From positions 43,310 to 107,309 of IMG/VR virus record IMGVR_UViG_3300047558_000238: DNA of 64,000 nucleotides. One strand, given 5' to 3'. How positions within the stretch are numbered: the first letter of the stretch is position 1; each line of letters opens with the position of its first letter. Under the pieces are notes generated by a model. That model was not told the DNA's origin. It saw nothing but the letters and a program-made list of their open reading frames with translations, and did not search any database. This document shows, piece by piece, positions 11,880 to 47,750 of the stretch. This DNA is from a virus. The position numbers and the translations under genes were made by a program.

Positions 11880-12689
11880 TTAGTTCCTATCTATTGATAT
11901 CTTATTAATTGTACTACCCTGGCCGTATGAGCTAGGGCTGATTGCTAATCCAAATCGTTTTGTTTTTGTTGGATTGTCTGCTGCATAAGTTAGGTCAGAG
12001 CCAATTTGGCTAGAAAAATTGTAGTCAGAGTAAGCTTGAATCGTAATAACATTATTTGAAGTTTTTACTCTAAATGCCGAGATTAACGTAGATACAGCCT
12101 GAGACCACATGACGGATATCGAACCGGATACTGACTTAAGTATTCTCAGATACTGGGGGTAGCAGGTGCTACATGAAGTTCCAGAGCAGGTGCTACATGA
12201 AGTTCCAGAGCAGGTTTGACAAGTAGTTGTTGTGCCCCCGCCGGTATAGTAGATGCAATAGAAGCCAGTCCAAAATCCGCAGGTAGGTGCAGTATAGGAG
12301 TCAACACAGTTGCAACTATATGAGTAGTTGTAGCAGTTGCAACTATATGAGTAGTTGTAGCAGTTGCAACTTTCTGCTTGACTATATTTTTGTACCCCCC
12401 ACCAACTATTGGATTCAGTCACCCAGAGGGAGACCATGGCCCCTTGATCTGGAGCGGCTAGTTCTACAGATACATTTTCTACGCCCATGTCTGTAGTCAT
12501 CATTGGATATGTTCCAGCACCAGTAACTGTAGTCAGCTTATTGCTTACAATGCTAAATGTTCCTGCTGCTATATCCCATTTGCTGCCATCAGTAGCAACT
12601 CCAGGACTGTTTGTTATGTCAGCTCTAGTGAAAGTATCAACAAACTTTTTTCTTACAGCTTGAGCTTTGATGCCTATTGACGGTCTCAC
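11880..12689 (-). CDS. putative lectin-like tail protein with cysteine-rich repeat insert
   Basis: The start is taken as the GTG that overlaps the upstream stop (TAGTG); a GTG 30 nt earlier at 12719 is also possible. The N- and C-terminal parts look like one concanavalin/LamG-type beta-sandwich: FVDTFTRADITNSPG, WDIAAGTFSIVSNKL, YLRILKSVSGSISVMW, VITIQAYSDYNF. It is split by an insert of about 65 residues containing two Cys-repeat arrays, CNCYNYSYS units and CSGTSCST units. About 18 cysteines are packed in this stretch. It is probably a receptor-binding or fibre component. The insert has no counterpart I recognise. Confidence 0.65.
   Translation of the reverse strand: MRPSIGIKAQAVRKKFVDTFTRADITNSPGVATDGSKWDIAAGTFSIVSNKLTTVTGAGTYPMMTTDMGVENVSVELAAPDQGAMVSLWVTESNSWWGVQKYSQAESCNCYNYSYSCNCYNYSYSCNCVDSYTAPTCGFWTGFYCIYYTGGGTTTTCQTCSGTSCSTCSGTSCSTCYPQYLRILKSVSGSISVMWSQAVSTLISAFRVKTSNNVITIQAYSDYNFSSQIGSDLTYAADNPTKTKRFGLAISPSSYGQGSTINKISIDRN
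12161..12215. repeat. 24-bp tandem repeat encoding CSGTSCST
   Basis: Two full identical 24-bp units (12161-12184 and 12185-12208) plus a partial third lie inside the cysteine-rich tail gene. The length keeps the reading frame. Confidence 0.85.
12307..12370. repeat. 27-bp tandem repeat encoding CNCYNYSYS
   Basis: Two identical 27-bp units (12307-12333 and 12334-12360) plus a 10-bp partial unit lie in the cysteine-rich tail gene. They keep the reading frame. Confidence 0.85.
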
Positions 12690-13405
12690 TATGCCACCGT
12701 ATCCCCAAACAATACCCACAAGTCAGTGCCGCGCTTGTAAAGCGTAGCGGATGACCACTGAGCACGCAGTTTATTTCCAGGAGTATAGTTTAGGGTTACA
12801 CCAGCACCCGGTGACACGGTAACTTGACCTGCTCCAGTTTGCATAATTGATATCGTTGATCCAACTGCTATAGCAGCTGAAGAATTAGGCGGAACTGTGA
12901 CAGTTATTGCAGCCGAGTTGTTTAACTCGATAAAGTAGGCAACATCGCCTGCAACTAAAGTATATGAAGTTCCAGTTTGGTTGTTTACTGGATAAGTAAG
13001 TGAGGCTTTAGAGTTCAACTGTGTCTGTATCGGTGAGGTTACACCGCTAGCGTAGTTTAGCTCAGTGGTGGTTACAGTTGCGCCATCTAGAATGTTAAGT
13101 TCTGCTGCTGTTGCCGTAACTCCCTCTACACCGGGGCCTGTCGGTCCAATCGGTCCTTGAATTCCGTCTGCTCCTGCTGGTCCAGTTGGTCCCATTGGGC
13201 CAGCTGCTCCATCTGCACCTGGTAGCCCATCGGCACCAGGTAGCCCGTCAGCACCCGTGGCACCAGTGGGTCCAGTTGGTCCGGTAGGGCCAACCACCAT
13301 AGCTGTATTTGATGCCTTCCAGAAGGTGCCATTCCATGTCCAAGACTGGTCACCTAAAACATACGTCTGCCCTACAGTAGGGGTGTTAGGGAAATTGATT
13401 GGCAT
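12689..13405 (-). CDS. short collagen-like tail fibre protein
   Basis: This is a 238-residue protein. Residues 1-38 are a small beta domain ([27 protein letters not shown]) common at the head of phage fibres. Residues 40-95 are Gly-X-Y collagen repeats, rich in GPT and GAD triplets. Residues 100-238 are a C-terminal knob that includes the element [14 protein letters not shown] and ends in [20 protein letters not shown]. That knob is shared with the 873-residue fibre at 27863-30484. It is likely a trimeric host-contact fibre. Confidence 0.8.
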
Positions 13406-14982: not shown

Positions 14983-17900
14983 CTACGCGAACTTAGCTTG
15001 GCTAGCTAGAACAGTAAATGTGTTAGTAGCTGTCTTAATAATAGTGTAGGTGTACATGTCAATAGAGCTAGCGTTTCCGCTAGAAGGAGCAGTTCCACCT
15101 ACCCATTTAGGGGTCACAGCCGTTCCATCGATTTGGTACGACGTTGGGTAGTATGGGGTAGTTCCGTTTGTAATCAGTAGTGCGCATGTCACTGACTGAT
15201 TTACTGACATAAATGCATCCAGGCTTGTGGCACCATCGTAATAGAAGTTAACTATTCCGTTGCCAGCTGCCGCTACAGTGTAGAACTGAACTGCACCATC
15301 TACTAACTTAAATGCACCTCCAGCAAATCCAGTAGCTGTTGCATATACGCCTTCCTTGGTTTGTGAAGTCAGCACTGGGCTAATGAGTGTCTTATTAGAT
15401 AGCGTCTGCGTTCCAGGAATTGTTACATATGTAGATGTGTCTGGAGCAGGGCCAGTTGCACCAGTAGGTCCAATTGGACCTTGAATACCTTGAACACCCT
15501 GAGGGCCTGCAGGGCCAGTGTCTCCAGTTGCACCAGTTAAACCCTGAACACCTTGAGCACCAGTTGCTCCAGTTGCTCCAGTTGGGCCGGTCGGGCCCAT
15601 ATCTCCGGCAACAGCTTCTGCCCAGAAGCCGTCGATATATGTGAGTAGAGTTCCAGTCGCGGTGTCGACCCATACGTCTCCTACGGAAGGCGATGTCGGG
15701 GCTACGTCTGAAACATAGAATTTACCGTCTGCACCTGTAGGACCAGTTGGTCCATCTAGTCCGTCGATACCGGCCGCGCCAGTAGGCCCAGTAGGGCCAG
15801 TTGCTCCTTGAACTCCAGTTGCACCAGTTGGACCTGTCGGACCAGTTGGGCCAATAGCACCAGCACTAATGGTTGTCCTAACGTTTGATGCCTTACCGTC
15901 TTCAAAATAGATGGTGGTAGTGCTATTAGAGTTTCCATATCCAGTAGGTCGGATTGCATAGTACTTAAAGACAAGTCTGTCAGTCAAATCAATTGATGCT
16001 GCAACTGATCGTACATACTGATAAGAAATCTCTTCAATGGTAGTGTTGCTGTGCAGTTCAGAGTCTACAGTTGAAAGTAGAGTCTCGCTCCCTCCGCTAG
16101 GTCCGCACTTATAGACTTCAGTGCGGAACTTAACACTGCCAGAGTCTACAAGCATGTGTAGGGAGTTGACTCCGATTCCTGTTGGAATATTAGTCACACC
16201 AGGAACTCCGACTGGAGTGGCAAATGCTCCAATTAGGTATGGAGTATCTGCCAGAGATAGCTGAATAGTGTAGCTAGTAAGCGCATTTACTGAAGGGCTT
16301 TCACCTGCAATAAAGTATCCAGTTAGGTCAGAGGTATCAGTTCTATTTAGATAGAAAGTTCTACCAGCTGCACCACCCTGAGGTCCTGTCGGTCCAGTGG
16401 CACCAGTCGGTCCGGTCGGGCCAACTACCTGAGAGTTAGTCCAGACGCCAGTAGCCGAGTTATATCTAAGAACGTCACCATCAACTAGAGTGCTTAGATT
16501 TACATCGTGAAGCTCGTCTAGCTCTAGACCATTGGCTACCTTTACATAGATAGACCCGGTTGTGGCTGATTTACGGACTAGGACACCAACCATAACCCCA
16601 TGAGCTGGAGCTTCTGGCCGCTGAGTAGTCATGGTTCCAGCAGTTTCTGATAGCCAAAGGACTGCACCTTCGCTATAGTTACTAACTATTCCACCGAATC
16701 CAACATAGTTAGATGTATCTATGTCTCTAACTAGACCATTAAGGGTCACATATCCTTCACCAGCCACTGCAATATCTTCTGTAGCGATACCAACAGTAGC
16801 TGTAGACTGCAACTCGGTAGAGGCGTCTGCCAAAATAACTTCTGGTCTAGTGCCATTTGCGCCACTAAGAGCGACAACTGACCCATTGGTGATAGTTGAC
16901 CCGGTAGCGTTGTAGACCTTCATCACGAACTCTTGGCCAACCTGGAGGGTTACGTTGTTACCGCCAAGACGAAGGTTTAGCGTACCATCAGCCTCGTTCC
17001 AGGCTAGCTCGCCTGGATTCGAGACACCGTTAACATACGTGGTGTCAAATCCCAGCTTGTCTAGTCCAGAGATTGAAGTTATTTCGGTAACAGCTCCGGA
17101 TGGCATAGGCCCTGTTGCACCAGTTGCACCAGTTGGTCCAGTTGGTCCAGCAACAGTCGAAGCTGCACCAGTCGGTCCAGTCGCACCAGTCGGACCAGTT
17201 GGTCCAGTCGCACCATCAGCGCCAATGTATCCATCTGCACCCTGAGGACCAGTCGCTCCGGTTGGGCCAGTCGGACCTTCTACACCTTGAGCACCAGTTG
17301 GGCCAGTTGGGCCTACCGGTCCAACAGAACCAGTAGGACCAGTCGGACCATCTACACCCTGAATTCCAGGGACACCTTGAATACCAGCAATACCCTGAGC
17401 ACCGGTAGGGCCTGTTGCTCCGGTAGGACCAGCCAAAGTGCCTGAGTCGACCCAGGATAGTGTTGTCTCTGACCAGATATATAGAACACCACCAGCGATG
17501 CTTGCATCGCCTGGAGTTCCAGTAGGGTGCGCTGCAATGAGCTCTGCATAAGTGTTATGAGCGTCAATGATCTGAATACCTTGACCCTGCGCACCAGTTG
17601 GGCCTGTCGGACCCTGAGCTCCAGTTGCACCTGTCGGTCCAATATTCCCCTGAACACCCTGAGCACCAGTAGCACCCGTTGGTCCAGTAACCCCTTGGGT
17701 TCCAGTTAGGCCTTGAGGCCCCTGAGCTCCCGTCGCACCAGTTGGACCGGCAATACCTTGAATACCTTGAGGACCTGTTGCACCAGTTGGGCCCTGGACA
17801 CCTTGAGCGCCAGTTGCACCAGTTGGTCCAGTGACCATCGATGGGGCACCAGTCGGACCGGTTGGACCCTGAGCTCCTGTTGCACCAGTTGGACCAGTTA

Positions 17901-19314
17901 CACCCTGAATTCCTTGGAATCCAGCCACGCCCTGAGGCCCCTGAGGGCCAGTAGGTCCAGTTGGTCCCTGTAAGTTTCCATTAGCTTCCCAGGCTAGGTT
18001 GTCCTGAGACCAGATGTAGATTGTACCGTTTACAACGTGCACGTCTCCGACGTTACCAATTGGGTGATCAGTGACAAGCTCTTGGTACGTAGCATAGGAG
18101 TCTAGAATAGTTAGGCTTTGACCCATTGGCCCTGTTGCACCAGTTGGTCCAGTTATACCTTGTACACCTGCGGCACCAGTTGCACCTGTAGGGCCTGTAG
18201 GGCCTTGAATACCCTGTAAACCAGTAAGACCCTGAGCTCCCTGGGCACCAGTTGCACCAGTTGCACCAGTTGCACCAGTAGCTCCAGTTGCACCGGTTGG
18301 TCCAGCTGGACCCTGCGTACCTTGAGCACCAGTTGGGCCAGTAACACCTGCTGGTCCTTGAAGACCGCTTGCTCCAGTAGGGCCAGTTGGCCCTACGGAA
18401 CCAGTTGCACCAGTGGCACCAGTTGCACCCTGAGTTCCAGTAAGACCCTGAGGGCCAGTTGCACCGGTAGCTCCAGTAGCACCTGTTGGCCCCTGGATAC
18501 CCTGTGTACCAGTAGGGCCTGTTGCTCCGATGGGACCCGTTGCTCCAGTAGGGCCTTGAATGCCCTGTGCACCCTGAGCTCCAGTCGGTCCGGTTGCTCC
18601 AGTAAGACCTGCTGAACCAGTAGCACCTGTTGCACCAGTTGGTCCAGTAGCTCCAGCAGACCCTGCAATACCCTGAGGACCAGTAGCTCCAGTCGGACCA
18701 GTCGACCCGGTTAGTCCTTGAATACCTTGAGGACCAGTTGCACCTGTTGCTCCTGTTGCACCAGTTGGACCAGTTACACCCTGAATTCCTTGCTCGCCCT
18801 GAGGACCAGTAGCACCAGTTGCACCCTGAGTTCCAGTAAGACCCTGAGGGCCTGTAGCACCAGTAGGACCCTGAGGGCCAGTAGAACCAGTAGCTCCGGT
18901 TGGCCCTGCTTGCCCTTGAATACCTTGAATACCCTGCGCACCAGTAGGACCAGTTGCCCCTTGAGCTCCTGTTGCGCCAGTAGCTCCAGTAGCGCCCGTT
19001 GCACCAGTTGCACCAGCTGCACCAGTTGCACCTGGTGTTCCTTGAATACCAGTTAGACCCTGTGGTCCAGTTGGGCCCTGGATACCTTGAGGACCAGTTG
19101 CGCCAGTAGGGCCTGGAATAGTACTAGCTGCACCAGTAGCACCAGTTGCACCAGTTGCACCAGTTGCACCAGTTGCACCAGTAGGACCAGTAGATCCTGG
19201 AGCGCCTGTAGGGCCAGTTGGCCCTCCCGCAGGGCCAGCAGGGCCAGTAGGTCCAGCAGGGCCTTGAGCCCCTACGCCCTTAACTTCTAGATACGCAAAG
19301 TCATCTGAAAACAT
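14983..19314 (-). CDS. giant collagen-like tail fibre/adhesin
   Basis: This is a 1,443-residue protein. Residues 1-15 are a short head. About 400 residues of uninterrupted Gly-X-Y triplets follow, dominated by GPT, GAT and GPQ-GIQ-GPT. Further collagen blocks are separated by small globular spacers: two homologous ones near 425-475 and 615-665 ([19 protein letters not shown] / [19 protein letters not shown]), a larger domain after GPMPSG, another starting RTFYLNRTD, and a [10 protein letters not shown] module. The chain ends in a globular C-terminal knob. Thr occupies most Y positions, the site that is O-glycosylated in bacterial collagens such as BclA. Oxygenase genes lie just upstream. Confidence 0.9.
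15450..19290. repeat. collagen triplet-coding repeat tracts
   Basis: Degenerate 9-bp units of the type CCA-GTT-GCA recur hundreds of times and encode Gly-X-Y triplets. They are most dense at 17100-19250, with shorter blocks near 15450-15600, 15730-15860 and 16380-16430. Confidence 0.85.
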
Positions 19315-19729: not shown

Positions 19730-20329
19730 CTAGTTGCTTAGCCTTTTAATCCAGAAAGCTGGCGACATGTATTTAACTCCTGAGACTACCGGAGTCGACC
19801 TGTGATAGTAGGGCTCTACAGATGGGAAGACCACAATACTTCCAGCTTCTGGCTTTATTTTTATATCGAACTCAGTGAAATGTAGCTCGCCGCCGTCCAT
19901 ATCGTCATTTAGGTAGATAACAGCTGACATTATTGGCTCTAAATGCGGCTCCCCGTGGTAGTCAACGTGAGGGCCCATCTCTGCTCCGCTAATGTATTTA
20001 GAGATACTTATAGGCGCTGGGTCGATATAGTCTATGCCATTCTTTTTGGCATAATCTCTTCCCGCCTCGGTTAAAGCGGTTTTTAGATTTAGATATATTG
20101 ACTTGACGCTATCAGAGCTGGTGCTTAGTTTAGATTCATCAGTAAATTTTTGCTGACCAAATACGTAAGGCTCTCCATCGCCAGAAGCCAACCATTGATG
20201 CCATTTTTGTATAGCATCGTTGGTAGTCAGATTAGCATCTGTTGTCTCGATGAGCTCTATGATCTTTTCTGGGCTCTCTACAATACCCTTGTAGTAGTAA
20301 ATTTTGTCAGCAAAAATCTCGGGGTTCAT
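19730..20329 (-). CDS. 2OG-Fe(II) oxygenase (P4H-like)
   Basis: The start is the ATG overlapping the previous stop (TAATG). The double-stranded beta-helix core shows the iron triad HVD (GPHVDYHGE) and a distal His (YYHRSTPV). Between them is the shared signature AVIYLNDDMDGGELHF. The 2OG-anchoring position is Lys (SGVKYMSPAFW), not the usual Arg. Members of this family hydroxylate protein or small-molecule substrates using O2 and 2-oxoglutarate. It is the last oxygenase of the cluster, immediately before the fibre adaptor and the collagen gene. Confidence 0.88.
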   Translation of the reverse strand: MNPEIFADKIYYYKGIVESPEKIIELIETTDANLTTNDAIQKWHQWLASGDGEPYVFGQQKFTDESKLSTSSDSVKSIYLNLKTALTEAGRDYAKKNGIDYIDPAPISISKYISGAEMGPHVDYHGEPHLEPIMSAVIYLNDDMDGGELHFTEFDIKIKPEAGSIVVFPSVEPYYHRSTPVVSGVKYMSPAFWIKRLSN

Positions 20330-21063
20330 TAGGCGAACTTGTTGCCCTTCTCCCACTCTATTTTCTGCTCGGCCTGTGCCTTACGTACCTCTTGGATTTC
20401 GGCTTCCCAAGCTGCCTTTTTCTCATCAGAGTACACGGCATCGGCAAAGTCCCAGAAGGAGACCATGGTATATCTAGTTCCCTTTAGAATCTCTTTAACT
20501 CCGTGAATGTTTTCTATTCCGCCAGGGAAGCAGATGTACGAGTAGGCAGCTGGCTTAAACTCTAGGTTGTGGTCAGGAAAATAAAGCTCTCCACCCTCGT
20601 AATCGTCATTTAAGTACAAGATACCTACATACTTATTAATCTCAAAAGCGTTTGGCGAGCCGTCGAAGTCCGAGTTATCTGAGTGTGGCGCTGCAAATCC
20701 GCCAACATCCCACTTCTGCGCATGCGAAGTATTGGCTACAACTTCACGATCAAATACCAGCTGAATAGCTTCTTTAAACTTTTCACGAAGAGTCTCGAAG
20801 AAGCGTGGAGGCAAGTCGTAGTCAGCTAGCTTCGGGTCATCAGGGTGAATGCCCATACCGGATGATCCGTAGAAGGCAATATCACCCCACGAAGAAGAAT
20901 ATGACTCTATGTAGTTGATGATGTTTCTTGCGGTATCTGGAGAGACAAAGTTAGCAATCTCTACGATACGGTTCTGAGGGATACCTAGCTCCCCGATGGC
21001 GTTGGGCTCATCTTTATAGACGATGAACTCTTCTGGCTGTAGGTTTTCAATAATCAATGACAT
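20329..21063 (-). CDS. 2OG-Fe(II) oxygenase (P4H-like)
   Basis: This is a 244-residue protein. The iron ligands are HSD (AAPHSDNSDFDG) and the distal His in IENIHGVKEI. The signature is LYLNDDYEGGELYFP, and the 2OG-binding Arg lies in KGTRYTMVSFWDF. The N-terminal 90 residues are helical (SPDTARNIINYIES). Start and stop codons overlap both neighbours, so translation is coupled through 21833-19730. A basic/acidic C-terminal helix (KKAAWEAEIQEVRKAQAEQK) is added after the core. Confidence 0.9.
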   Translation of the reverse strand: MSLIIENLQPEEFIVYKDEPNAIGELGIPQNRIVEIANFVSPDTARNIINYIESYSSSWGDIAFYGSSGMGIHPDDPKLADYDLPPRFFETLREKFKEAIQLVFDREVVANTSHAQKWDVGGFAAPHSDNSDFDGSPNAFEINKYVGILYLNDDYEGGELYFPDHNLEFKPAAYSYICFPGGIENIHGVKEILKGTRYTMVSFWDFADAVYSDEKKAAWEAEIQEVRKAQAEQKIEWEKGNKFA

Positions 21064-21833
21064 TAGTGGTCTATACCTTTCAAGTTATATCGTCCAGAAT
21101 TACGTTCGACGCGCTCGCGCTCTTTTTCCATCTCGCCCCATACCGTGGGGCCGTACTTTTCCAAACCGTCACGCCACTCCTGAGTGCCCTCCGAGTAGTA
21201 CTGCCAGAATGAGCGAACAAAATATTTTTGCCCTGAAGTAGTTTTATTTACTCCATGGTAGTAAGGTGCTCTGGACGGGAACACTAGCACATCACCGGCC
21301 TGAGGCTTATGAATAAAAAAATCTACATCAGTACCTTCTTCATTCAATACTTTGAAGCAGATCTCTCCGCCTTCATAGTTATCGTTTAGGTACATAGTGC
21401 ATGTCATCACTGGCTTATCGCCAGGAGCATCAGCGCGTTCTTGCTGAAAATCAGTGTGATAGAACATGCCAACATTAGTGTCTGCTCCGCCATCAGTTTT
21501 ATACATGCAAATAGCGGGAGCGCTGAATTTCCAGTTAGGAATCTCTTCGTTGAAGTAGTTATCGTGGTAGTGACTGGTGGCCGTATAAAAAGCTCCCATA
21601 ATTTCTTGTGCAGCAGGTACTAGACCCTGGCTCGCAACCATGGTCTCATGCCACTCATCAGCATCAGGAAATTTACTAAATGTATGGTTTCTAGCCTTTA
21701 CGGTAGTTAGCTCTCCAAAGGTAAACCACTTAGCCCACTCCGCCGAGTCACGGTAATGCTTAGCTACTTCTTCTGGGTTTTGATATAAACCTCGGTAGAC
21801 AACAACATTCGGGTAGAGTTCGATAACTTCCAC
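21063..21833 (-). CDS. 2OG-Fe(II) oxygenase (P4H-like)
   Basis: The start is placed at the GTG at 21833 that overlaps the upstream stop (TAGTG); a GTG at 21845 is possible. The iron ligands are HTD (FYHTDFQQE) and YYHGVN. The signature is MYLNDNYEGGEICF, with a 10-residue insert in the following loop. The 2OG-anchor residue is Lys (SGQKYFVRSFW). The C-terminus is strongly charged (GEMEKERERVERNSG). The substrate is unknown. Confidence 0.9.
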   Translation of the reverse strand: MEVIELYPNVVVYRGLYQNPEEVAKHYRDSAEWAKWFTFGELTTVKARNHTFSKFPDADEWHETMVASQGLVPAAQEIMGAFYTATSHYHDNYFNEEIPNWKFSAPAICMYKTDGGADTNVGMFYHTDFQQERADAPGDKPVMTCTMYLNDNYEGGEICFKVLNEEGTDVDFFIHKPQAGDVLVFPSRAPYYHGVNKTTSGQKYFVRSFWQYYSEGTQEWRDGLEKYGPTVWGEMEKERERVERNSGRYNLKGIDH

Positions 21834-22513
21834 TAGATACCGCACTGGCTTTCGTGAGATAAGATCGTCCAGAAAAACGGAACAGTGTATCTAGTACCGG
21901 AGGTAATCTGAGTTACTCCGTGAATGTACTCCATGTCTCCAGGGAAGAAGTAAGCAGCACCTGCCTTGGGCTTAAACTGAATCCCCTGATTTGGGAAGTA
22001 CAGCTCGCCACCTTCGTAATCGTCGTTCAAGTAGAACAGTCCAGCTAGGTCATAGTAGGGGAAGTCATTTGGCTTACCTCTATCTGCACCTTGGTGTAGC
22101 TCTTTATCTGCGTGAGGCATCTGAAGCTGTCCAGGCAGCCAGCGGACTAAAGCTGGTGAAGTAGGTACCGCGTCTACTTTAAAGAACGCGTCTACTTCCT
22201 TCTTAAGCCGATCAACCATACCGCTGATCACTTCTGGAATCTTTGGATCTACTGCTCGTATGGTGTCATAGGTGGCAACTCGATCTTTCCAGTAGTCAGA
22301 GTCGTAAATTACCGTGCCTTCTTCGTTATAGTGAGTCTCGGTTACATCCCAGGCAGTATTTGATCGAATAAATTTATTAAGAGTCTCTAGCTCGTACTCT
22401 GTCATAAAGTTCTCACGGGTCTGAATGTTTGACGGGCTATTGCCAAAAAATCCAGATGGTGTTATAGAGACTCTATTATTTAGTCTAGAGTTTGCGTAAT
22501 CTTCTGGTTCCAT
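21833..22513 (-). CDS. 2OG-Fe(II) oxygenase (P4H-like)
   Basis: This is a 226-residue protein. The iron ligands are HAD (QMPHADKELH) and YIHGVTQI. The signature is FYLNDDYEGGELYFPNQGIQFKP, with a 2OG Arg in SGTRYTVPFFW. A TAAGAT box sits exactly 6 nt before the ATG, so this gene may also start its own leaderless transcript inside the cluster. Confidence 0.9.
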   Translation of the reverse strand: MEPEDYANSRLNNRVSITPSGFFGNSPSNIQTRENFMTEYELETLNKFIRSNTAWDVTETHYNEEGTVIYDSDYWKDRVATYDTIRAVDPKIPEVISGMVDRLKKEVDAFFKVDAVPTSPALVRWLPGQLQMPHADKELHQGADRGKPNDFPYYDLAGLFYLNDDYEGGELYFPNQGIQFKPKAGAAYFFPGDMEYIHGVTQITSGTRYTVPFFWTILSHESQCGI

Positions 22514-22529: not shown

Positions 22530-23261
22530 CTACTCGTAAACTCGTCTGGTCCAAACTTCTTTTTGGTAGACGCCACCGTCAGGTACACGATATTTTTTAC
22601 TATTTTCATTGTTACTCATCGCCATCTTCATGTACGAGACATCAGCATCTACTTCTGACTCCCAGTCTTCTCGCTTAAATGGAAGCATCTGGGCATACGG
22701 TGTTCCGGCTGGAATAATTCCGGTAAAGCCTTTTACTACAAAGAATGGCATGGTTCCCGGAAGGTTTACCTTGTCATTGTCGATAATTCCACTAGTGGTT
22801 AGAAACGGTAGCTCAAAGCGATTGAATGGCTGGGTGTATAGGACGCTGTAGCCTTCAGGGACTGATACGGCCCAGTCTGACCACCATGCGAAGTGGAACT
22901 CGTGGTAGCCCATCGGTGCTTTAAACTGAGGCATTGGTGGTCGGTTCTGGATAAAGTCCTTGTTTTGAGGGTCTAGGACCTTAGCTCTAATGGTTCCGTT
23001 TTCTTCATAAAACTCGATATCGCATGGTGTTCTATAGACGTATCCAGTACCCATGATGTCAAAAACTGCCGGACAAGCTTTCCAGGTAGGGATCTTTCCT
23101 CCCACCATCGGGTCCTGCCAGTATTCACCATCTGGCTTTATTGCAAACCTATCAGCTTTTCTATACCACTCTGGGATAGTCTTAATAGTTGGACGCGGGA
23201 CAGAGGGGCTATCCTCTGTCAGCCATGGCCTGTTCTTGATGAACTTAATCAGTTGTTTCAA
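22530..23261 (-). CDS. hypothetical DUF6065-like protein (paralogue of 10951-11640)
   Basis: This is a 243-residue protein with a TTG start behind an AGGA site. It shares with 10951-11640 the blocks PEWYRKAD, TGYVYRTPCDIEF, FAWWSDWAVSVPEGYSVLYTQPFNR, TSGIIDND, MPFFVVKGFTGIIPAGTPYAQMLPFKREDW. The fold is probably all-beta. It lies between oxygenase genes and overlaps the upstream DUF6065-like gene by 17 nt. No catalytic residues can be named. Confidence 0.6.
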   Translation of the reverse strand: MKQLIKFIKNRPWLTEDSPSVPRPTIKTIPEWYRKADRFAIKPDGEYWQDPMVGGKIPTWKACPAVFDIMGTGYVYRTPCDIEFYEENGTIRAKVLDPQNKDFIQNRPPMPQFKAPMGYHEFHFAWWSDWAVSVPEGYSVLYTQPFNRFELPFLTTSGIIDNDKVNLPGTMPFFVVKGFTGIIPAGTPYAQMLPFKREDWESEVDADVSYMKMAMSNNENSKKYRVPDGGVYQKEVWTRRVYE

Positions 23262-23979
23262 TTGTCATTCCTGTCACTGGGCATGTTACTGTCTTTAGTC
23301 TTATTGACTTAGTCTCGTGAGAGCCTAACGAAGTACCATCATAGTTTATGGCGTTTCTATACATCTTCGACCAGTCACCCTTAGAGTTTTTGGCTTGTGC
23401 CGCATCTCCATACTTTCTCAGCTCCTCCCAGTACTCGGGTGGTGGTGGGGTGCTGTCTACTTCTAAAGTGAAGTTGTCTTCTAGCTGACCCAATGAGATT
23501 GGCAGAACTGCTGCTACTGGAGTTCCTGCTGGAATAGTAATCTCTTTGTCTGCTTCGGTTATCTTCCAAGCAACTGGTAGCGGTGCATTATAGAAAGACG
23601 TGCTAATTAGCGTAGTAAAGCATTGAGTACCAGCTATAAACTGATTCGGAACTGGCATAGTTAGCGTTGTAACATCAGCGTCTGTATGGAAGATTAGTCC
23701 AGTATCGAAACTAACTGTTGCACTGCCTCGATTTGGGTTCGCCCACTCTTCACCTTTGAGAATAGTGACATGGTCTCTGGTCGGATCATCGATTCCATCC
23801 CAGATAAATGAAATATCTTCAGGGAAAGATATACCCCACCCTAGCCGATTAGTTAGCGACACTGGAAAGCACATGTAGCCATGCTTTTCTGGCAGTCGAT
23901 CCATCCAGTCTCTGGTCCCTGGTAATGGTTCGATTTTTACACCGTTATCGTAGGCCTTAACTACACGTATAGTTTTCAC
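23245..23979 (-). CDS. DUF6065-like protein
   Basis: This is a 244-residue protein with MCFPVSLTNRLGWGISFPEDISFIWDG, TGLIFHTDADVTTLTMPVPNQF and ITIPAGTPVAAVLPISLGQLE. The 'P-x-x-x-x-N-x-xGW-x-(I/L)' block and GTPVA-x-(V/L)-P motif resemble the DUF6065 family found in bacteria and phages, and they parallel the GTPxAQ motif of the next gene. A GTG start overlaps the upstream stop (TAGTG). Function is unknown. Its place inside the oxygenase operon suggests a shared process. Confidence 0.6.
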   Translation of the reverse strand: MKTIRVVKAYDNGVKIEPLPGTRDWMDRLPEKHGYMCFPVSLTNRLGWGISFPEDISFIWDGIDDPTRDHVTILKGEEWANPNRGSATVSFDTGLIFHTDADVTTLTMPVPNQFIAGTQCFTTLISTSFYNAPLPVAWKITEADKEITIPAGTPVAAVLPISLGQLEDNFTLEVDSTPPPPEYWEELRKYGDAAQAKNSKGDWSKMYRNAINYDGTSLGSHETKSIRLKTVTCPVTGMTIETTD

Positions 23980-24728
23980 TAGCTTCCGGTTTCTACCATA
24001 AATGACGGCTTGTGGAACTTGTCTGAGTAGTCAAGCATAGTTACCATCGAGTACTTAGTACCAGACTTAACTGGCATAGCTCGGTGTGGGTACATAAAGT
24101 TTGACGGGAAGATATATAAATCGCCTGCAGTAGCCTTGATGGTTGCATTTTGCAGTCTGAAGTGCAGCTCGCCGCCTTCATAGTCATCATTAGGGAACGC
24201 AACTAGGGACACTACGCAGTTGTAGGAGAAGCCGTGATCGTGGTGCTCCTGAAAGTGCTGTCCTGGACCGTACTTAATGAAGTTAGTTGCTTCCCAGTAG
24301 CGGAGCTCGCCAATGTTATACATCTTTGTGTAGTGGCGGACTGCCTGAAGCTGGCGATAGTGAGTCTCGTCCCAGAGGGCAGCAAGCTTTTCAGCTGCCT
24401 CCGACTTATCGCTTTGAATGTCTGTCTTCTTGTACTTAAAATCAAAGCAGTCGCGATACTCTGGCATCTTTACGCCATATCCGACCAATGCTTCTTCGTA
24501 GTGGTATCGATTAGTCGGGTCTAATAGGACCTCTTCTAGTCTGCTAATGACGTTTACTGAAGACGGTATTACATTTCTATACACCCAGATACCAGATCCT
24601 GGCGCAACCTCTTCTGCGTGGTCCCAGGTTTTTTCTTCAATCTCGTACCACTTAGTTAGGCGTAGATTGTGGTCTTCAATCTCTCGCTCCATTGCTTCAG
24701 TTGGCTTACTTACGTGAGAGTTTTGCAT
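23979..24728 (-). CDS. 2OG-Fe(II) oxygenase (P4H-like)
   Basis: This is a 249-residue protein. The iron ligands are HHD (FQEHHDHGFSY) and MYPHRAMPV, and the signature is AFPNDDYEGGELHFRLQNATIKATAGDLYIFPSN. The 2OG anchor is Lys (SGTKYSMVTMLDY). It is the closest relative of the next gene, 24738-25481. The N-terminal half (RLTKWYEIEEKTW, GSGIWVYRNVIPSSVNVISRLEE) is helical, as in prolyl-4-hydroxylase-type proteins. AGAGG precedes the ATG. Confidence 0.9.
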   Translation of the reverse strand: MQNSHVSKPTEAMEREIEDHNLRLTKWYEIEEKTWDHAEEVAPGSGIWVYRNVIPSSVNVISRLEEVLLDPTNRYHYEEALVGYGVKMPEYRDCFDFKYKKTDIQSDKSEAAEKLAALWDETHYRQLQAVRHYTKMYNIGELRYWEATNFIKYGPGQHFQEHHDHGFSYNCVVSLVAFPNDDYEGGELHFRLQNATIKATAGDLYIFPSNFMYPHRAMPVKSGTKYSMVTMLDYSDKFHKPSFMVETGS

Positions 24729-24737: not shown

Positions 24738-25481
24738 TTAGTACTTGAGCTTGTAGTCTTGAATTATTGGAGACACCTTGTGATTAACATCTCCGCGATC
24801 GTTGTAGTCGGTCATAATAACAACCGCATACTTAGTCCCGCTAATCATGTCCTGAGATGCGTGCTCATAGATATATGTTGACGGGAATACGACAATATCT
24901 CCTGCCTTAGGCTTAATCGAGAGTCCGTCCATACGGGGGAACCAGATCTCACCACCTTCGTAGTCGTCATTTAAGTAGACGACCACGGAGATGGTGCAAA
25001 CATACGTCGGGCCATGGTCAGCGTGGACCTTAAAGTGGGTGCCAGCACCCTCGTACTTTACAAAATTGAATGCCTCATACGATGCAATGCCAACACCCCA
25101 ATAGCGACCGTAGTCGTCTACGCATTGGCGCACTGCCTGAAACACTGCCTCGTGAACGTCGTACAGTTCGGCGTTGTCTTCGTTACGTGGCCCCAGTCCA
25201 GTGGAGTTGATCTTAAAGTCTTGAGCATTCCTTGCATTAAGGTCGACATCTGCAGATGATGTGACCTTAGCTCCATGCCATTTATATCTACCGCTGCCGT
25301 CAAGCTTACGCTCTAACGTATCGATGTATTGCTGCCCCTGCTCTTTGGTGATTGCACCACTATAAACATTGATGCCTAGAGCTGGGTTAGTTACGGTAAT
25401 AGCTGGATTAGTTGAAGCCTGGCGACCAGGCATACGGTGAGATGCGGTCTCTGACCTGTCTTTAGTAAACCAATCGTTCAT
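24738..25481 (-). CDS. 2OG-Fe(II) oxygenase (P4H-like)
   Basis: The start is chosen at the ATG at 25481; a TTG at 25499 would add 6 residues. A TATAGT box lies 7 nt before the chosen ATG. The iron ligands are HAD (FKVHADHGPTY) and YEHASQDM. The signature is VYLNDDYEGGEIWFPRMDGLSIKPKAGDIVVFPS, with a Lys anchor (SGTKYAVVIMTDY). It is similar along its length to 23979-24728, so the two are likely a tandem duplication. Confidence 0.9.
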   Translation of the reverse strand: MNDWFTKDRSETASHRMPGRQASTNPAITVTNPALGINVYSGAITKEQGQQYIDTLERKLDGSGRYKWHGAKVTSSADVDLNARNAQDFKINSTGLGPRNEDNAELYDVHEAVFQAVRQCVDDYGRYWGVGIASYEAFNFVKYEGAGTHFKVHADHGPTYVCTISVVVYLNDDYEGGEIWFPRMDGLSIKPKAGDIVVFPSTYIYEHASQDMISGTKYAVVIMTDYNDRGDVNHKVSPIIQDYKLKY

Positions 25482-25499
25482 ATGGTCTACTATACACAA

Positions 25500-26102
25500 C
25501 TATTCAGATTTTTGCTGAAGTCTTTCTAGGTATTTTGGGCTCATTAAATATGACTCTGACTCTGTTAATAGCCCCTGGTCTTGTAGCTTATATCCGTAGT
25601 CTGGACCTTCGGTGAAATACCAATGATCTTCCGGACAAAAATGAAACATAATAACCTCGACCCTGTTGTTATCTGGGTCAGGCATTTCATTGCGCCAATG
25701 AGAATCATAGCCCCCCATAAATGCTAAAGCTTGTCCCTCGGAGAATATAAACTCCTCGCCCTCGACTACTACCCCCCATGGAGTTCTGGCTGATAGGCAG
25801 TAGTCGATTGTATAGGTGCATGCGTTATTGTCCCTATGCGGGGGTAAGCTAGAGGTCGGCTTATTGTAGTCTAGATAGACAGCATAGGTTGACTTAAGAT
25901 TAGGATCAGAAAATATCTCTCTAGCTGTTGGCTCGATAGCCTTACTAAAGTAGTCATCTAGCTGAGTAAATCTTTTAACTCCTCTATCTTTTTTGGAGTC
26001 TTTCCATGACTTCTTAAAGTCGTCAGAGTCTATTAAAGCTCGAAGCTTTTCATGATCTGCTGCAGAGAAAAGATTATCTAGTAGTTTAGGTTCAAAGTGC
26101 AT
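25500..26102 (-). CDS. divergent 2OG-Fe(II) oxygenase-like protein
   Basis: This is a 200-residue protein from a different branch. HRD (SSLPPHRDNNACTYT) is the likely first pair of iron ligands, SHWRNEMPDPDNNRVEVIMFHF supplies the distal His and an Arg, and PEDHWYF follows. The YLNDDYEGGE signature is absent and is replaced by WGVVVEGEEFIFSEGQALAFMGG. This resembles small-molecule or aspartyl-type hydroxylase relatives. It precedes the canonical members in the same operon. Confidence 0.7.
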   Translation of the reverse strand: MHFEPKLLDNLFSAADHEKLRALIDSDDFKKSWKDSKKDRGVKRFTQLDDYFSKAIEPTAREIFSDPNLKSTYAVYLDYNKPTSSLPPHRDNNACTYTIDYCLSARTPWGVVVEGEEFIFSEGQALAFMGGYDSHWRNEMPDPDNNRVEVIMFHFCPEDHWYFTEGPDYGYKLQDQGLLTESESYLMSPKYLERLQQKSE

Positions 26103-26114: not shown

Positions 26115-26918
26115 CTACTTAAGTCTGACGTAGCCAGGAATATGGTCTGTAAAATCCTCTGCAACAATGTTGCACTGACCACATCCGCCAGGATTGCATT
26201 CATAGTTTGACTCGGGTATTCCGGTCAGTCTTGGGCTGTGGCCTATATGTTCGTAGTATCTAATATCGCCATCTAATTTATACTCAGCCATTCGACGATA
26301 TAGCTCTTCATGATCTTTGTCGTCGTAAGCACTTAGGTCGTACATCCAATGCTCTGGGCTAACAAATAAGACGAACATCAATACTACGTAAGCATCTTCA
26401 TCAACGTCTGGGTATGGCGGCCTTGCATGGGTCTGCTGTTGCCCCATAAAAAATACACCGCTGTTTACGGCTTCCTCAAATCGCTCGCCATCGACTAGTA
26501 GGCCCCAGCTATCTATGCCGTGAGTGTCTATGCATATGTCCATAGTGAACTGAGTTCCTGGCTGATCCATGTGCTCCCAGAGATATGGAGTTATGCCTTT
26601 ATATTTTTGATATCTAGCAAACCAGATATTTTTGATTCGAAGTCCCTGCTTTTTCCAATTTTTCTTGGCTAAGTCGTCTAGGTGGTCCCAGACCTCCTGC
26701 GGCAAATCAATCTCGGTCACCCATCTGCCAGTCATGGTGTGGTATTGCGCTGGATTCTCTAGACTCTCGCTGCCTGGCCCCCAGTTGGCTTTTTCAGCCA
26801 GTGCCAAGTTTATCTCCTCGAGCATATCCTCTGGGAATATGCCCTCTACTTTTTTAGCTGGCTCACCTTCTGGCAGGGGCCACTTTATGTTTGGGCTGGA
26901 GTCAGCTGAAATCGGCAC
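26115..26918 (-). CDS. divergent 2OG-Fe(II) oxygenase-like protein with Cys tail
   Basis: This is a 267-residue protein. Its core parallels 25500-26102: HMD (LWEHMDQPGTQFTMD), WGLLVDGERFEEAVNSGVFFMGQQQTHARPPYP and VLFVSPEHWMYD. No Arg is visible at the usual anchor position. A C-terminal extension carries a cluster, CNPGGCGQC, that might hold a metal. The GTG start has an AGGAGAG ribosome-binding site. It is the first gene of the oxygenase cluster, just after a terminator for the preceding fibre gene. Confidence 0.65.
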   Translation of the reverse strand: MPISADSSPNIKWPLPEGEPAKKVEGIFPEDMLEEINLALAEKANWGPGSESLENPAQYHTMTGRWVTEIDLPQEVWDHLDDLAKKNWKKQGLRIKNIWFARYQKYKGITPYLWEHMDQPGTQFTMDICIDTHGIDSWGLLVDGERFEEAVNSGVFFMGQQQTHARPPYPDVDEDAYVVLMFVLFVSPEHWMYDLSAYDDKDHEELYRRMAEYKLDGDIRYYEHIGHSPRLTGIPESNYECNPGGCGQCNIVAEDFTDHIPGYVRLK

Positions 26919-26980: not shown

Positions 26981-27844
26981 CTACTCTTCTTTCTGAGGCT
27001 CTTCGTTCTCTGCATCTAGCTCTCGCTCATCGATCGAGCTCATGCCGAATCTTGGCGGGAAGAACGGGAAGAACGGGAAGAACGGTGGGAAGAACGGGAA
27101 GAACGGTGGGAAGAACGGGAAGAACGGGAAGAACGGTGGGAAGAACGGGAAGAACGGTGGGAAGAACGGGAAGAACGGTGGGAAGAACGGGAAGTACGGG
27201 AAGTACGGGAAGTATGGCGGGAAGAACGGAGGCGTAGTATTCTGAGTAGAATACGCTGACCACAGCGATGTTCCATTAATATTTACTGCTCTAACTCGGT
27301 ACTGCTGTGAAGTAGCAGCTTCCTGAGCTACGTTGGCTGCCGTACTTACGGTGTTGCCAGACTTAGCATCAGTACTCTCCCAGTAGTAGAGAGTTATGTT
27401 GCTGCCACCGTTATTTGGGGCGGTCCAAGAGACATAGTCTGTTTGGTCATTAGAGAAGTTTTGAACTACTGGAGCAGCAGGGGCATCCGGGACAGTTGTA
27501 ATCGTTACCGCAGCAGACTCGGTAGAGAAAGCAGAAGCACCACTTGCATTTGAGGCAGATACTGTAAAAGTATATGACCCGTTGGAGTCTAGACCGCCTA
27601 CGGTTATCGGTGATGCTGTTCCAGTTGTCCCGGTTGCAGTAGTATCTTCTATGCCAGATTTGTATGCTTTTACAGTATATGAAGTTGCTGGTGGCGACCC
27701 GGCTGGTAGGGTAAACGATACAGACGCAGCGCCGTCGTTGTATGCTCTGTCGGTTGCAACGTTAGTTGCAGACACATTTGTAGGAACAGAAGGCTGTAAA
27801 AAATCATTCTGTTGCTGAGAGTGTCTACCTGCTCTTTTTGACAT
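26981..27844 (-). CDS. FN3-domain protein with FFPFFPP heptad repeat
   Basis: This is a 287-residue protein. Residues 1-17 are basic. Residues 18-115 and 118-207 are two fibronectin type III domains (PSVPTNVSATNV...YTVKAYKSG, PDAPAAPVVQNFSND...WTAPNNGGSNITLYYWES). Residues 210-268 are an uninterrupted Phe/Pro tract built on the heptad FFPFFPP, and the chain ends in an acidic tail (ERELDAENEEPQKEE). No signal peptide is seen. FN3 domains are common on virion surfaces. The aromatic-proline tract is hydrophobic but cannot form a normal helix, so a polyproline-type rod or membrane-contacting patch is possible. It is the last gene before a strong terminator. Confidence 0.8.
   Translation of the reverse strand: MSKRAGRHSQQQNDFLQPSVPTNVSATNVATDRAYNDGAASVSFTLPAGSPPATSYTVKAYKSGIEDTTATGTTGTASPITVGGLDSNGSYTFTVSASNASGASAFSTESAAVTITTVPDAPAAPVVQNFSNDQTDYVSWTAPNNGGSNITLYYWESTDAKSGNTVSTAANVAQEAATSQQYRVRAVNINGTSLWSAYSTQNTTPPFFPPYFPYFPYFPFFPPFFPFFPPFFPFFPPFFPFFPFFPPFFPFFPPFFPFFPFFPPRFGMSSIDERELDAENEEPQKEE
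27056..27230. repeat. 21-bp/9-bp tandem repeat encoding FFP heptads
   Basis: The array is made of GGGAAGAAC 9-mers, grouped as 21-bp units (two 9-mers plus GGT). On the minus strand it encodes Phe-Phe-Pro heptads. The last units (27191-27222) change to GGGAAGTAC, giving Tyr-Phe-Pro. The array is open in several frames on both strands. Confidence 0.9.
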
Positions 27845-27862: not shown

Positions 27863-30484
27863 CTAGGCGGACAGGTCTCCATAGACTAACCAAGTATTTG
27901 CTGCACGCTTTAATAGTGTAGCAGATGACCACTGAGTTCTTAGCTTAAGCCCTGGAGTTGCATTTACTGTTACTCCTCCAGCTCCAGCAATAGTTACCTG
28001 TCCAGCTCCAGTCTGGATGATATCTAACGTGGTACCTACGGGGTAGTTTATGGTTGCATCTGTTGGAATTGTTAGAGTTGTAGCCGATGCGCTTCCAATC
28101 TCAACGATAGTGTCTCGCTCATCTAGGCTTGCTAGCGTGTATGATGCGGTCTTCTGAGAGATCGTCGTAATAGATGGCACTCCGACCTTTGTCTGAGTCC
28201 CGTCTGAGAACGCTACTCCACTAGAAGATACTGTAACTAGTCCAGTAAACGTAGGAGCTGCTATCGGCGCGTACGTACTTGCAGCGGTAGAGGTTCCAAG
28301 CTTGGCGTCTAGCTGGCTCTGAATCCCTGATGTTACTCCATCTAGGTACTGTAGTTCTGTATTAGATACGTTTCCGATTACTGCAGACGACGCCTCGAAT
28401 GCTCCGACGGCAAGTGCATCTAGCGATCCCTGAGTGAAGTTGATAGTAGTAGTAGGCTCGTCGGTTACACCTTTAAATAGCTTCCATTTAGCGTCCGATG
28501 AGTCTCTAACAAGTCCGGCATGCTGGTAAGTTCCGTCATTAAAGCTAGCAACCATACCAAGGTCTGATGAGTTAGCATTATTGCCTTCACCAATATAGAT
28601 TAGCGGGTCAGTAATGGCTAAGTCAGTTGCATTTACTGTCGTAGTAGTTCCGTTGACGGTGAAGTCTCCTGAAATTACTAGGTTACCGCCAATGTATGCG
28701 CTATCTCCTGTGCCTAGTCCACCAGCAATTACCAAAGCTCCGGTAGTTGTGCTAGTAGATGGTGTCGTAGCTGAGATAGCAACATTTCCTGTGAAGGTGT
28801 CTCCAGAGAGATCTGCTTTTCCATCTAGCTGAGTCTGGATAGCTGAAGTAACGCCATCTAGATAGCCAACCTCGGTAGCACTTACGGTGCCGATAGATGT
28901 TGTAGAAGGTAGCGTAACTGTTCCAGTGAAAGTTGGTCCAGCTAGGTCAGCCTTTAGGTCTAAAGCGCTCTGAGTTGCAGTTGATATTGGCTTACTAGCG
29001 TCAGAAGTATTGTCTACATCTCCTAAACCAACCATGGCCTTAGTTATGCCAGAAACTATCCCGGTAAAGGTTGGGTTGGCGATTGGTGCCTTAGAGTCTA
29101 TCTGAGATTGAATAGCTGAAGTAACGCCAGAGAGCTGGTTGATTTCTGAGGCTAGAACGGTCACACCATCTAGGGTGTTTAGCTCTGCAGTGCTTACAGT
29201 TGCTCCAGTAAGAATGTTAAGTTCTGCGGTGCTAGCTGTAATTCCAGTAAGAACATTAATCTGGGCGCTAGTTGCTGTCACTCCTGTAAGGATATTTAGC
29301 TCTGCAGTACTTGATGTCATACCGTGCAGAATGTTCAACTCTGTGGTAGTTGCCGTAATTCCAGTTAGCGTATTTATCTCTGCCGTAGTGGCTGTAACTC
29401 CATCAAGAAGGTTTAGCTCTGCGGTGCTAGCAGTAATCCCGGTAAGAGTATTTAGCTGTGCAGTAGTTGCTGTGATTCCAGTCAGAACATTCAGCTCTGC
29501 AGTGCTTGAAGTGATACCATCCAGGATCGCTAACTCCACTGGAGAGATAGTGCCGATAGTAGTATCAGCCGGAAGTACTACAGTACCTGTGAAAGTTGGG
29601 CTAGTCAGGTATGCAAGATTTCCAGTGTCCGAGATTCCGTGAACATTCGAGATTTGGCTGTTGTGCACAGTGATTGCATTAGATACGTCGACTTGATACG
29701 CCAAGTTGGCTGCATTAGAGATTCCGTGCACATCTGTTGTGCGGTTGTGAACTATGATTTCATCGTCCACGTAGCCCTTAGTGGCCGCATGCAGAGGGTT
29801 TACGGGGGCACTAGGGAGTGTTAGTGCTCCAGTCATGGTGTCACCAGACTTTGACACCTTAGTACCGATTGAGTTCGTTATCGTAGTAGCAAAATTAGCA
29901 TCATCATTTATTGCAGCAGATAGCTCATTGAGTGTGTCAAGCAGAGCTGGTGAGCCATCGATAACTGCACTAACTGCAGTATCTACATACCCCTTAGTTG
30001 CTGCATCAGTCGAACTTGCTGGTGCTGCTAACCCTGTAACTGTGTAGTTATTAGCGTCTAGGTTGGAGCCTAAAGAGGTGAAAGGTCCGATAACCTTATT
30101 TCTAATAGTCTGATAGTCAGTTGTACCGACCACATCACCAGCAACGCCGTGAACATCGTGAGTTGCCGATGCGTGAGTGCTTAGGTTAGTTGCTACGGTT
30201 GTGAAAAATGCTGGATCATCGCCAAGAGCCGCTGCTAGCTCATTTAGGGTATCCAATGTCGATGGAGCTAGATCAATGATGCCATTGACAGCAGTGTCAA
30301 TCATCCCCTGAACTGTTGCTGGAGATGCTGTAGCGTAGGCCAAAGCACTCCAAGTACTAGTGCCATCACCAAACTTAATGCTCAGTGTATCGGTCTCTAG
30401 CCCAACCTCGCCGCTGGAGAGTACTGGATTAAACGATGACCAGTTAGCTGCTGTGTCGTGTCTGAGGATGATTTTAACTGCCAT
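27863..30484 (-). CDS. large tail fibre with Mtd-N-like head and STAELNxL repeats
   Basis: This is an 873-residue protein. Residues 1-50 resemble the N-terminal domain of major-tropism-determinant-type fibres (ILRHDTAANWSSFNPVLSSGEVGLETDTLSIKFGDGTSTWS). Residues 60-280 contain repeated 'LDTLNELAAALGDD' and 'AATKGYVD' blocks. Residues 320-450 carry at least ten copies of a 12-residue repeat, TGITASTAELNI. The C-terminal 80 residues are the QTGAGQVTI...LRTQWSSATLLKR module shared with 12689-13405. This is a long trimeric host-binding fibre. Confidence 0.88.
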   Translation of the reverse strand: MAVKIILRHDTAANWSSFNPVLSSGEVGLETDTLSIKFGDGTSTWSALAYATASPATVQGMIDTAVNGIIDLAPSTLDTLNELAAALGDDPAFFTTVATNLSTHASATHDVHGVAGDVVGTTDYQTIRNKVIGPFTSLGSNLDANNYTVTGLAAPASSTDAATKGYVDTAVSAVIDGSPALLDTLNELSAAINDDANFATTITNSIGTKVSKSGDTMTGALTLPSAPVNPLHAATKGYVDDEIIVHNRTTDVHGISNAANLAYQVDVSNAITVHNSQISNVHGISDTGNLAYLTSPTFTGTVVLPADTTIGTISPVELAILDGITSSTAELNVLTGITATTAQLNTLTGITASTAELNLLDGVTATTAEINTLTGITATTTELNILHGMTSSTAELNILTGVTATSAQINVLTGITASTAELNILTGATVSTAELNTLDGVTVLASEINQLSGVTSAIQSQIDSKAPIANPTFTGIVSGITKAMVGLGDVDNTSDASKPISTATQSALDLKADLAGPTFTGTVTLPSTTSIGTVSATEVGYLDGVTSAIQTQLDGKADLSGDTFTGNVAISATTPSTSTTTGALVIAGGLGTGDSAYIGGNLVISGDFTVNGTTTTVNATDLAITDPLIYIGEGNNANSSDLGMVASFNDGTYQHAGLVRDSSDAKWKLFKGVTDEPTTTINFTQGSLDALAVGAFEASSAVIGNVSNTELQYLDGVTSGIQSQLDAKLGTSTAASTYAPIAAPTFTGLVTVSSSGVAFSDGTQTKVGVPSITTISQKTASYTLASLDERDTIVEIGSASATTLTIPTDATINYPVGTTLDIIQTGAGQVTIAGAGGVTVNATPGLKLRTQWSSATLLKRAANTWLVYGDLSA

Positions 30485-41652: not shown

Positions 41653-41997
41653 GGGGATGACTGGTTTCGACAGTCACCCGAAAAATTAGTGAAGCAAGCA
41701 GAGAAGCCTGTACCTCTTGAATCGGGCAAAGAAATAAATGCAAACTCACGTTCCGCATTCGCTCTAGCTGCGTAGCCTAGCTACAACGCTTCGGCCCCTA
41801 GCAAAGCACTAGTCCTAAGTGGGCAGCTAGGTTTTAAATAAGTAGGACAACTAGCATCACGGTAACGATTCAAGCCGCAATTGGATCTGACTCGATGTCT
41901 GGCAGGTCAAACTTCGAGAATACAAGGAAAGCTGCCTAAGCTTGTAGAAGACTAGTTAAACGGTGATTGGACCGGGGTTCGATTCCCCGCATCTCCA
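41653..41997 (+). ncRNA. ssrA: tmRNA (transfer-messenger RNA)
   Basis: The 5' end GGGGATGACTGGTTTCGACAG and the 3' end GGTTCGATTCCCCGCATCTCC form the tRNA-like domain, with 7-bp acceptor pairing (one G-U). The resume codon is GCA at 41740, and the tag reads ANSRSAFALAA with a TAG stop at 41773-41775, typical of actinobacterial tags. CCA is not encoded. It rescues stalled ribosomes and tags the nascent peptide for proteolysis. It is 345 nt long, normal for a one-piece tmRNA. Confidence 0.96.
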
Positions 41998-41999
41998 CT

Positions 42000-46506: not shown

Positions 46507-46580
46507 GGTCCTGTAGCTCAGTTGGTTAGAGCGCCGCCCTGTCACGGCGGAGGTCGACGGTTCAAGCCCGTTCAGGATCG
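46507..46580 (+). tRNA. tRNA-Asp (GTC)
   Basis: Acceptor GGTCCTG/CAGGATC, anticodon stem CCGCC/GGCGG with loop CTGTCAC, and a complete T-arm are present. CCA is not encoded. Confidence 0.95.
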
Positions 46581-46585
46581 CGTTA

Positions 46586-46657
46586 GGCCTCATAGTTTAT
46601 CGGTTAGAACGCCGCCCTTTCACGGCGGAAGGGCGAGTTCGATTCTCGCTGAGGCTG
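46586..46657 (+). tRNA. tRNA-Glu (TTC)
   Basis: Acceptor GGCCTCA/TGAGGCT (with a terminal G-U), anticodon stem CCGCC/GGCGG with loop CTTTCAC, and T-arm GCGAG-TTCGATT-CTCGC are present. It shares its anticodon stem with the adjacent tRNA-Asp. Confidence 0.93.
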
Positions 46658-46675
46658 CGACACAACTAAATACTT

Positions 46676-46751: not shown

Positions 46752-46797
46752 ACAGGCAGAGATACTGTCTCGGAGGCATCTGAGATAAGTCAAACCT

Positions 46798-46880: not shown

Positions 46881-46896
46881 TTTAACTAAATAATAT

Positions 46897-47058: not shown

Positions 47059-47063
47059 CTTGG

Positions 47064-47749: not shown

Positions 47750-47750
47750 A

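Follow-up and report, generated by a model that had tools for sequence, protein, structure and literature searches.

What use could a phage have for a protein segment built of phenylalanine, tyrosine and proline alone? The question is raised by a gene on the minus strand of a 64,000-nucleotide stretch of viral DNA, hereafter called the window, the product of which carries 60 such residues after two FN3 domains. Our preferred answer, to which we give a probability a little under one half (about 0.45), is a tail-fibre-associated adhesin with a Phe/Pro stalk, the prolines of which are probably hydroxylated by neighbouring oxygenases. The stalk itself is well supported; its hydroxylation, its conformation and its location in the virion are what we infer.

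The window protein and its tract

The coordinates, strand and reading frame of the ORF, as given in the original prediction, are correct, and the protein is divided as follows:

26981..27844 (−): FN3-FFP protein, 287 aa, ATG start; conserved family in IMG/VR
27794..27844 (−): N-terminal motif MSKRAGRHSQQQNDFLQ, aa 1-17, strongly conserved family-wide
27494..27793 (−): FN3 domain 1, aa 18-117, approximate boundaries; Pfam fn3 over aa 35-110, AlphaFold2 (AF2), Foldseek
27233..27493 (−): FN3 domain 2, aa 118-204, approximate boundaries; second fn3 stretch, AF2, Foldseek, PHROG
27053..27232 (−): tract of Phe, Tyr and Pro only, aa 205-264, 60 residues, units [F/Y]FP and [F/Y]FPP
26984..27052 (−): acidic C-terminal tail RFGMSSIDERELDAENEEPQKEE, one among several tail types exchangeable in relatives

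Two FN3 domains had been predicted ahead of the tract, and the different methods agree on them: PF00041 matches the protein in two stretches at 35.1 bits (cut-off 25), AlphaFold2 models both domains with a pLDDT above 90, and the Foldseek matches are FN3 tandems. Residues 113-203 also match a PHROG minor tail protein (9e-6); phage minor tail proteins with FN3 domains (PHROG 6977 and 31) are weakly similar in the FN3 part, and none has been reported with a Phe/Pro tract. In the region of the N-terminal motif, which is probably a virion-docking segment, K3, G6, S9, N13, D14, L16 and P18 are invariant in 32 sequences.

The Phe/Pro run, announced as about 59 residues long, counts 60 residues with the composition F31 P26 Y3 and nothing else; no regular structure is predicted for it by AlphaFold2 (pLDDT 53-58). 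Phe, Tyr and Pro together make up 12.8% of the residues in the other CDSs of the window, and the chance of a 60-residue run of these three, calculated from composition alone, is about 1e-54. At the DNA level the array is not the pure 21-bp repeat that had been described; it mixes 9-bp (FFP) and 12-bp (FFPP) units, and TRF finds periods of 9, 21 and 30, with a best period of 51 bp. The gene lies on the minus strand, so the YFP units, taken for late copies, in fact open the tract on its N-terminal side.

Grammar, selection and distribution of the tract

We counted repeat units in 195 distinct proteins from IMG/VR contigs, with a loose definition of the tract that does not presuppose a grammar. 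The overall composition is F 51%, P 44% and Y 2.5%, and the units read [F/Y]-F-P or [F/Y]-F-P-P: non-Pro blocks have exactly two residues in 3749 cases out of 3872, position 2 of these two-residue blocks is Phe in 3737 (99.7%), position 1 is Phe in 3284 and Tyr in 326, and Pro runs are one or two residues long, with 21 exceptions out of 3677. Family-wide, only Phe is commoner than Tyr at position 1, and in some relatives (L043, L059, L024) Tyr predominates there, which, together with the strong selection at position 2, contradicts the idea that YFP units are signs of repeat decay.

Among single-base neighbours of TTC at position 2, we found 295 synonymous against 14 non-synonymous changes, a count in which tandem-duplicated copies are not independent of one another; at position 1, non-synonymous change is nearly all from Phe to Tyr. 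The direction is plain: as read from the codons, position 2 is under strong purifying selection, and what is conserved is the amino acids, not the DNA. The Pro codons of the tracts are mixed (CCA 60%, CCG 27%, CCT 12%); Phe codons, about half of which are TTT elsewhere in the window, are mostly TTC in the tracts, a preference that perhaps avoids T-runs. A selfish or neutral DNA repeat read in frame by chance, or an assembly artefact, would agree with a tandem array at the DNA level that changes in length, but this explanation, to which we give practically no credence, is refuted by the mixed Pro codons, by the 295 to 14 count and by retention of the tract in hundreds of contigs. A sequencing or assembly error, which had been named as a possible refutation of the prediction, is excluded, as the same kind of tract occurs in those hundreds of contigs. 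We also asked whether the true gene might use another reading frame, and rejected this: other frames are open too, but it is the FFP frame that runs on from the conserved FN3 domains and displays the synonymous pattern.

Comparison of repeat length among relatives, suggested as a check, reveals the expected variation. The tract spans 20 to 179 aa across the family, and of 27 pairs whose FN3 parts share at least 93% identity, 20 differ in tract length, bearing in mind that contig ends truncate some members and that repeats may have been collapsed by short-read assembly.

A scan of IMG/VR with the window protein, FFP peptides being among the seeds, returned at least 276 confirmed relatives, and the tract is present in 59/59 distinct proteins from the best 80 of these at least 276 loci. 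Because this first scan was seeded with FFP peptides, conservation of the tract was retested from scans anchored on the oxygenase, the primase and NrdB. Among 65 oxygenase-anchored loci with upstream room, 61 have FN3 and tract, two have a tract truncated by the contig edge, and the remaining two run out of contig within additional inserted genes; with 63/65, the tract is therefore effectively universal at that gene position.

Outside these viruses, the exact degenerate DNA pattern for the 13-residue motif FFPFFPPFFPFFP gave 0 matches in 84,980 bacterial and archaeal genomes and at least 120 matching stretches in viral contigs; since the pattern is one specific phasing of the motif, cellular absence holds for this pattern alone. 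A FN3-pattern search of bacterial and archaeal genomes gave no relatives of the window protein. Cultured phages returned only weak FN3 matches to the whole protein, in a search where the low-complexity tract is masked; the PDB returned one meaningless sequence match to the tract (E 0.67); and a literature search for the FFPFFPP motif and Phe-Pro repeats found no paper. The chemistry of this repeat appears undescribed so far, and so is the large group of viruses, probably infecting Actinomycetota, that carries it. NrdB shares 77% identity with proteins of Gordonia and Mycobacterium phages, and the closest relatives of the primase are those of Microbacterium phages and of the lake phage DSL-LC01, so the host is probably an actinomycete.

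Modules around the tract

At least four different N-termini carry the tract: the FN3 pair; in L215, a lone, unrelated FN3; in L177, L222 and L228, a short N-terminus lacking FN3; and that of L229, where two tracts occur in one protein. The endings after the tract are exchangeable as well: acidic tails, RFMRIL, GGCPPRC, Cys-rich tips, such as YCWQCPCSNCTC, runs of GVGV (GV repeat) and, in many relatives, a Hint/intein-like domain of about 150 aa. The window protein has no Hint domain and ends, as predicted, in an acidic tail (23 aa). The tails of L158, L227, L239 and L240 end in YSSKRFKxxI, which by eye looks like the beginning of a peptidase S74 chaperone domain, the rest of which does not follow. 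Elsewhere in the window, the product of 11880-12719 (−) contains embedded CNCYNYSYS and TCSGTSCSTC repeats, which recall the Cys-rich tips of the FFP relatives.

The C-terminal Hint domain of the relatives resembles known BIL/Hint domains (2lwy, 6tmm, hedgehog 1at0): its profile matches the bacterial intein-like (BIL) domain 2lwy at E 6e-11, and Foldseek on its model (AF2 pLDDT 92) retrieves BIL (BIL2, 2lwy), intein and hedgehog structures at E 1e-7. Cys1 is invariant in 20 aligned members, and most of them have the HN end. In the Hint-like domains of L013, L011, L040, L041, L152 and L154, Cys1 is seemingly lost (Ser/Thr or nothing at that place), and these copies are possibly inactivated or repurposed.

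Some phages have a second tail protein with an unrelated N-terminus, an internal tract between two domains and collagen-like tail proteins adjacent. It was seen at L447:1302-2156(+), L448:1255-2130(+) and L449:1486-2463(−), laid out as a non-FN3 beta N-terminus, an internal tract and a PASTA-like or Ig-like C-terminal domain, with collagen-like flanks.

With such module swapping and internal use, a stalk or spacer fits better than a terminal membrane anchor. Three roles had been proposed for the tract, and the rigid aromatic rod is the best fit, given the fixed grammar, the free length, the swappable N- and C-modules and the internal linker of the second tail protein. The membrane or wall anchor fares less well: in several proteins the tract is followed by folded-domain sequence, which weakens the case for a purely C-terminal membrane anchor, while insertion into membrane or wall is a live, if improbable, rival. 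In this role, a hydrophobic segment would insert into the envelope or anchor in the membrane and so grip the host surface at adsorption or genome entry. Its very favourable Wimley-White partitioning, about -26 kcal/mol at the interface and -52 in octanol, and the many tracts that stop within 10-30 residues of the C-terminus agree with such a role, but the tract also lies between folded domains and ahead of Hint domains of 150 aa, a transmembrane helix is disfavoured by the alternating Pro, and a length ranging from 20 to 179 aa is unlike a membrane span. As for the phase-separating segment, nothing specific speaks in its favour. Self-association more broadly, be it fibre bundling, cross-packing or a condensate in tail assembly, would suit a Phe-rich low-complexity sequence that tolerates length changes and tips whose Cys residues might form cross-links; the regular spacing of Pro and the invariant position 2 point to a defined geometry rather than to generic stickiness, and we hold this role to be very improbable.

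A neighbouring block of prolyl-4-hydroxylase-like genes

The stalk reading is to be seen in its gene context. The neighbours of the FN3-FFP gene are listed below; loci counts refer to 69 loci with at least 4.2 kb downstream of the FFP gene:

27863..30484 (−): Mtd_N-domain tail-fibre protein, immediately upstream
26115..26918 (−): possible divergent 2OG-type oxygenase; visual inspection shows HxD...H-like motifs; L004 ortholog E 2e-126; no significant Pfam match
25500..26102 (−): weakly Asp/Asn hydroxylase-like, PF05118 E 0.0087, below cut-off
24738..25499 (−): 2OG-Fe(II) oxygenase, prolyl-4-hydroxylase-like, core partner; PF13640, 46.4 bits; homologue at 66/69 loci
23979..24728 (−): 2OG-Fe(II) oxygenase, core partner; PF13640; 69/69 loci
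23245..23979 (−): DUF6065 protein, core partner; PF19541; 65/69 loci
22530..23261 (−): PHROG_7084 protein, core partner, related to haloarchaeal virus HF1/HF2 proteins; 68/69 loci
21833..22513 (−): 2OG-Fe(II) oxygenase, core partner; PF13640; 62/69 loci
21063-21845, 20329-21063, 19730-20356 (−): three more 2OG-Fe(II) oxygenases, variable between phages
14983..19314 (−): collagen-like protein, 1443 aa; rival oxygenase substrate

At 53/53 loci with room, the gene upstream of the FFP gene is homologous to the Mtd_N tail-fibre gene, and this context, along with the PHROG tail matches, points to a tail protein. The whole 107-kb record (G000) encodes ten PF13640 oxygenase domains, six of them in the block beside the tail genes. 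The product of the gene starting at 24738 has the 2OG-Fe(II) fold of the prolyl 4-hydroxylase family, with the HxD...H triad and a Lys at +10 (H159, D161, H213 and K223, invariant in 17 sequences), and its closest solved relatives are prolyl hydroxylases (3itq, 5hv0 and 5iax at E 1e-7; P3H1 at 0.003). The HxD...H and the Lys at +10 are shared with the closest of these, the B. anthracis P4H (3itq, 5hv0), but the match spans just about 77 core residues.

The linkage between tract and oxygenases, the main clue and one absent from the original prediction, is well supported. When loci were selected by FFP DNA only, a same-strand homologue of the oxygenase block, usually an ortholog of the 24738 gene, was present within 3.5 kb downstream in 59 of 64 FFP ORFs with room; among the five exceptions, three are second FFP genes whose oxygenase lies at a distance of 8-10 kb, and two have just 2.1-2.5 kb of downstream sequence. 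Fourteen linked ORFs were not matched as FN3-type, mostly contig-edge fragments and also complete proteins with other N-termini. In a blind sample of 35 contigs of at least 60 kb picked by primase or NrdB, tract and full-length 24738 ortholog (>440 bits) occur together in 9 and neither occurs in 26. Fisher's test on this split gives 1.4e-8, uncorrected for relatedness, a value that overstates significance because the contigs share ancestry and fragments can lose both neighbours together; the linkage cases are likewise not independent, being largely within one phage clade with conserved synteny. Neither a tract nor a PF13640 gene was found in the complete relative DSL-LC01 or in Microbacterium phage Zooman.

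This synteny is central to another explanation, which we judge unlikely: the tract would be an unmodified stalk or linker, the oxygenases would modify collagen-like tail proteins, the tail fibre, metabolites or nucleic acid, and the linkage would merely reflect the clade. It draws on the distant 2OG family members retained, without a close ortholog, in 8 of the 26 tract-less contigs, on related 2OG genes in cyanophages, on cultured phages giving no FFP-family match (tract masked in that search) and on an oxygenase number that climbs with long collagen genes (means 11.3 vs 8.1, p = 0.002), from which some extra oxygenases probably do act on collagen. Against it, the close ortholog tracks the tract exactly (9/9 vs 0/26), and the linkage persists with changed N-termini and without collagen. 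Indeed, of 27 FFP records examined, each with 6-15 PF13640 genes, five have no collagen match and keep 6-9 oxygenases, and collagen was rejected as the obligatory sole substrate. In the window collagen, Pro occupies the X position in 88/243 triplets and the Y position, where it is nearly absent, in 4/243. B. anthracis P4H hydroxylates Pro-rich collagen-like peptides at both positions and favours Y (PMC8968730), so this scarcity makes a collagen substrate less probable. We infer a split in which the extra enzymes may serve collagen and the core set the tract.

In our preferred reading of a hydroxylated stalk, the conserved N-terminus and FN3 domains would dock the protein to the tail, the [F/Y]FP(P) tract would form a stiff, length-tolerant aromatic-proline stalk, and the variable C-terminus would be an outward tip or, in Hint-bearing relatives, an autoprocessing end. 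Aromatic-Pro bonds are cis-prone; 4-hydroxylation favours the trans form and a polyproline-II-like rod, and adds surface hydroxyls. Hydroxylation of tract prolines by the prolyl-4-hydroxylase-like 2OG oxygenases encoded just downstream would thus bias the Phe-Pro bonds to trans, favour such a rod and render a very hydrophobic chain usable in water.

The idea of a modified low-complexity tail stalk has collagen-like precedents. Collagen-like phage tail fibres, some of which the window phage itself also encodes, share with the tract a low-complexity, Pro-containing, length-variable tail stalk with exchangeable end domains; E. coli O157 prophage EPclA is an example with a Gly-X-Y stalk (PMC3368898). 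The tract differs in having Phe, Tyr and Pro only, without glycine or any Gly-X-Y repeat, so that a collagen triple helix is impossible. A prolyl 4-hydroxylase is also known from Chlorella virus PBCV-1 (Eriksson 1999, cited in PMC9301287). It was reportedly proposed to act on viral proline-rich proteins; that system differs in being a virus of a eukaryotic alga, with another repeat and a single enzyme rather than a block.

Since the tract adjoins a gene resembling collagen prolyl hydroxylases, a new kind of chemically modified virus fibre is suggested. The fullest version of this proposal, which we advance as tentative, is a new structural repeat class hydroxylated by a dedicated phage oxygenase block in a large actinophage clade and undetected in the cellular genomes searched, i.e., a collagen-like maturation of a non-collagen substrate, with Hint self-processing in some members. 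A stiff, aromatic protein material is one possible application of such a repeat class. Prolyl-4-hydroxylase genes abound in viral metagenomes, and the tract offers a specific candidate for what phage prolyl hydroxylases act on. How viruses use P4H "remains cryptic", according to a Baltic virus study of 2022 (PMC9301287); because the candidate substrate is genetically inseparable from a P4H-like enzyme, this question is testable here in one co-expression experiment.

Elsewhere in the window, the phage encodes a tmRNA (tag ANSRSAFALAA) and a tRNA cluster (41653-41998 and 46507-47824, +), and the product of 60582-62951 (−) has a signal-like N-terminus, a coiled-coil-like region and a long Pro-Thr repeat, and is possibly surface exposed.
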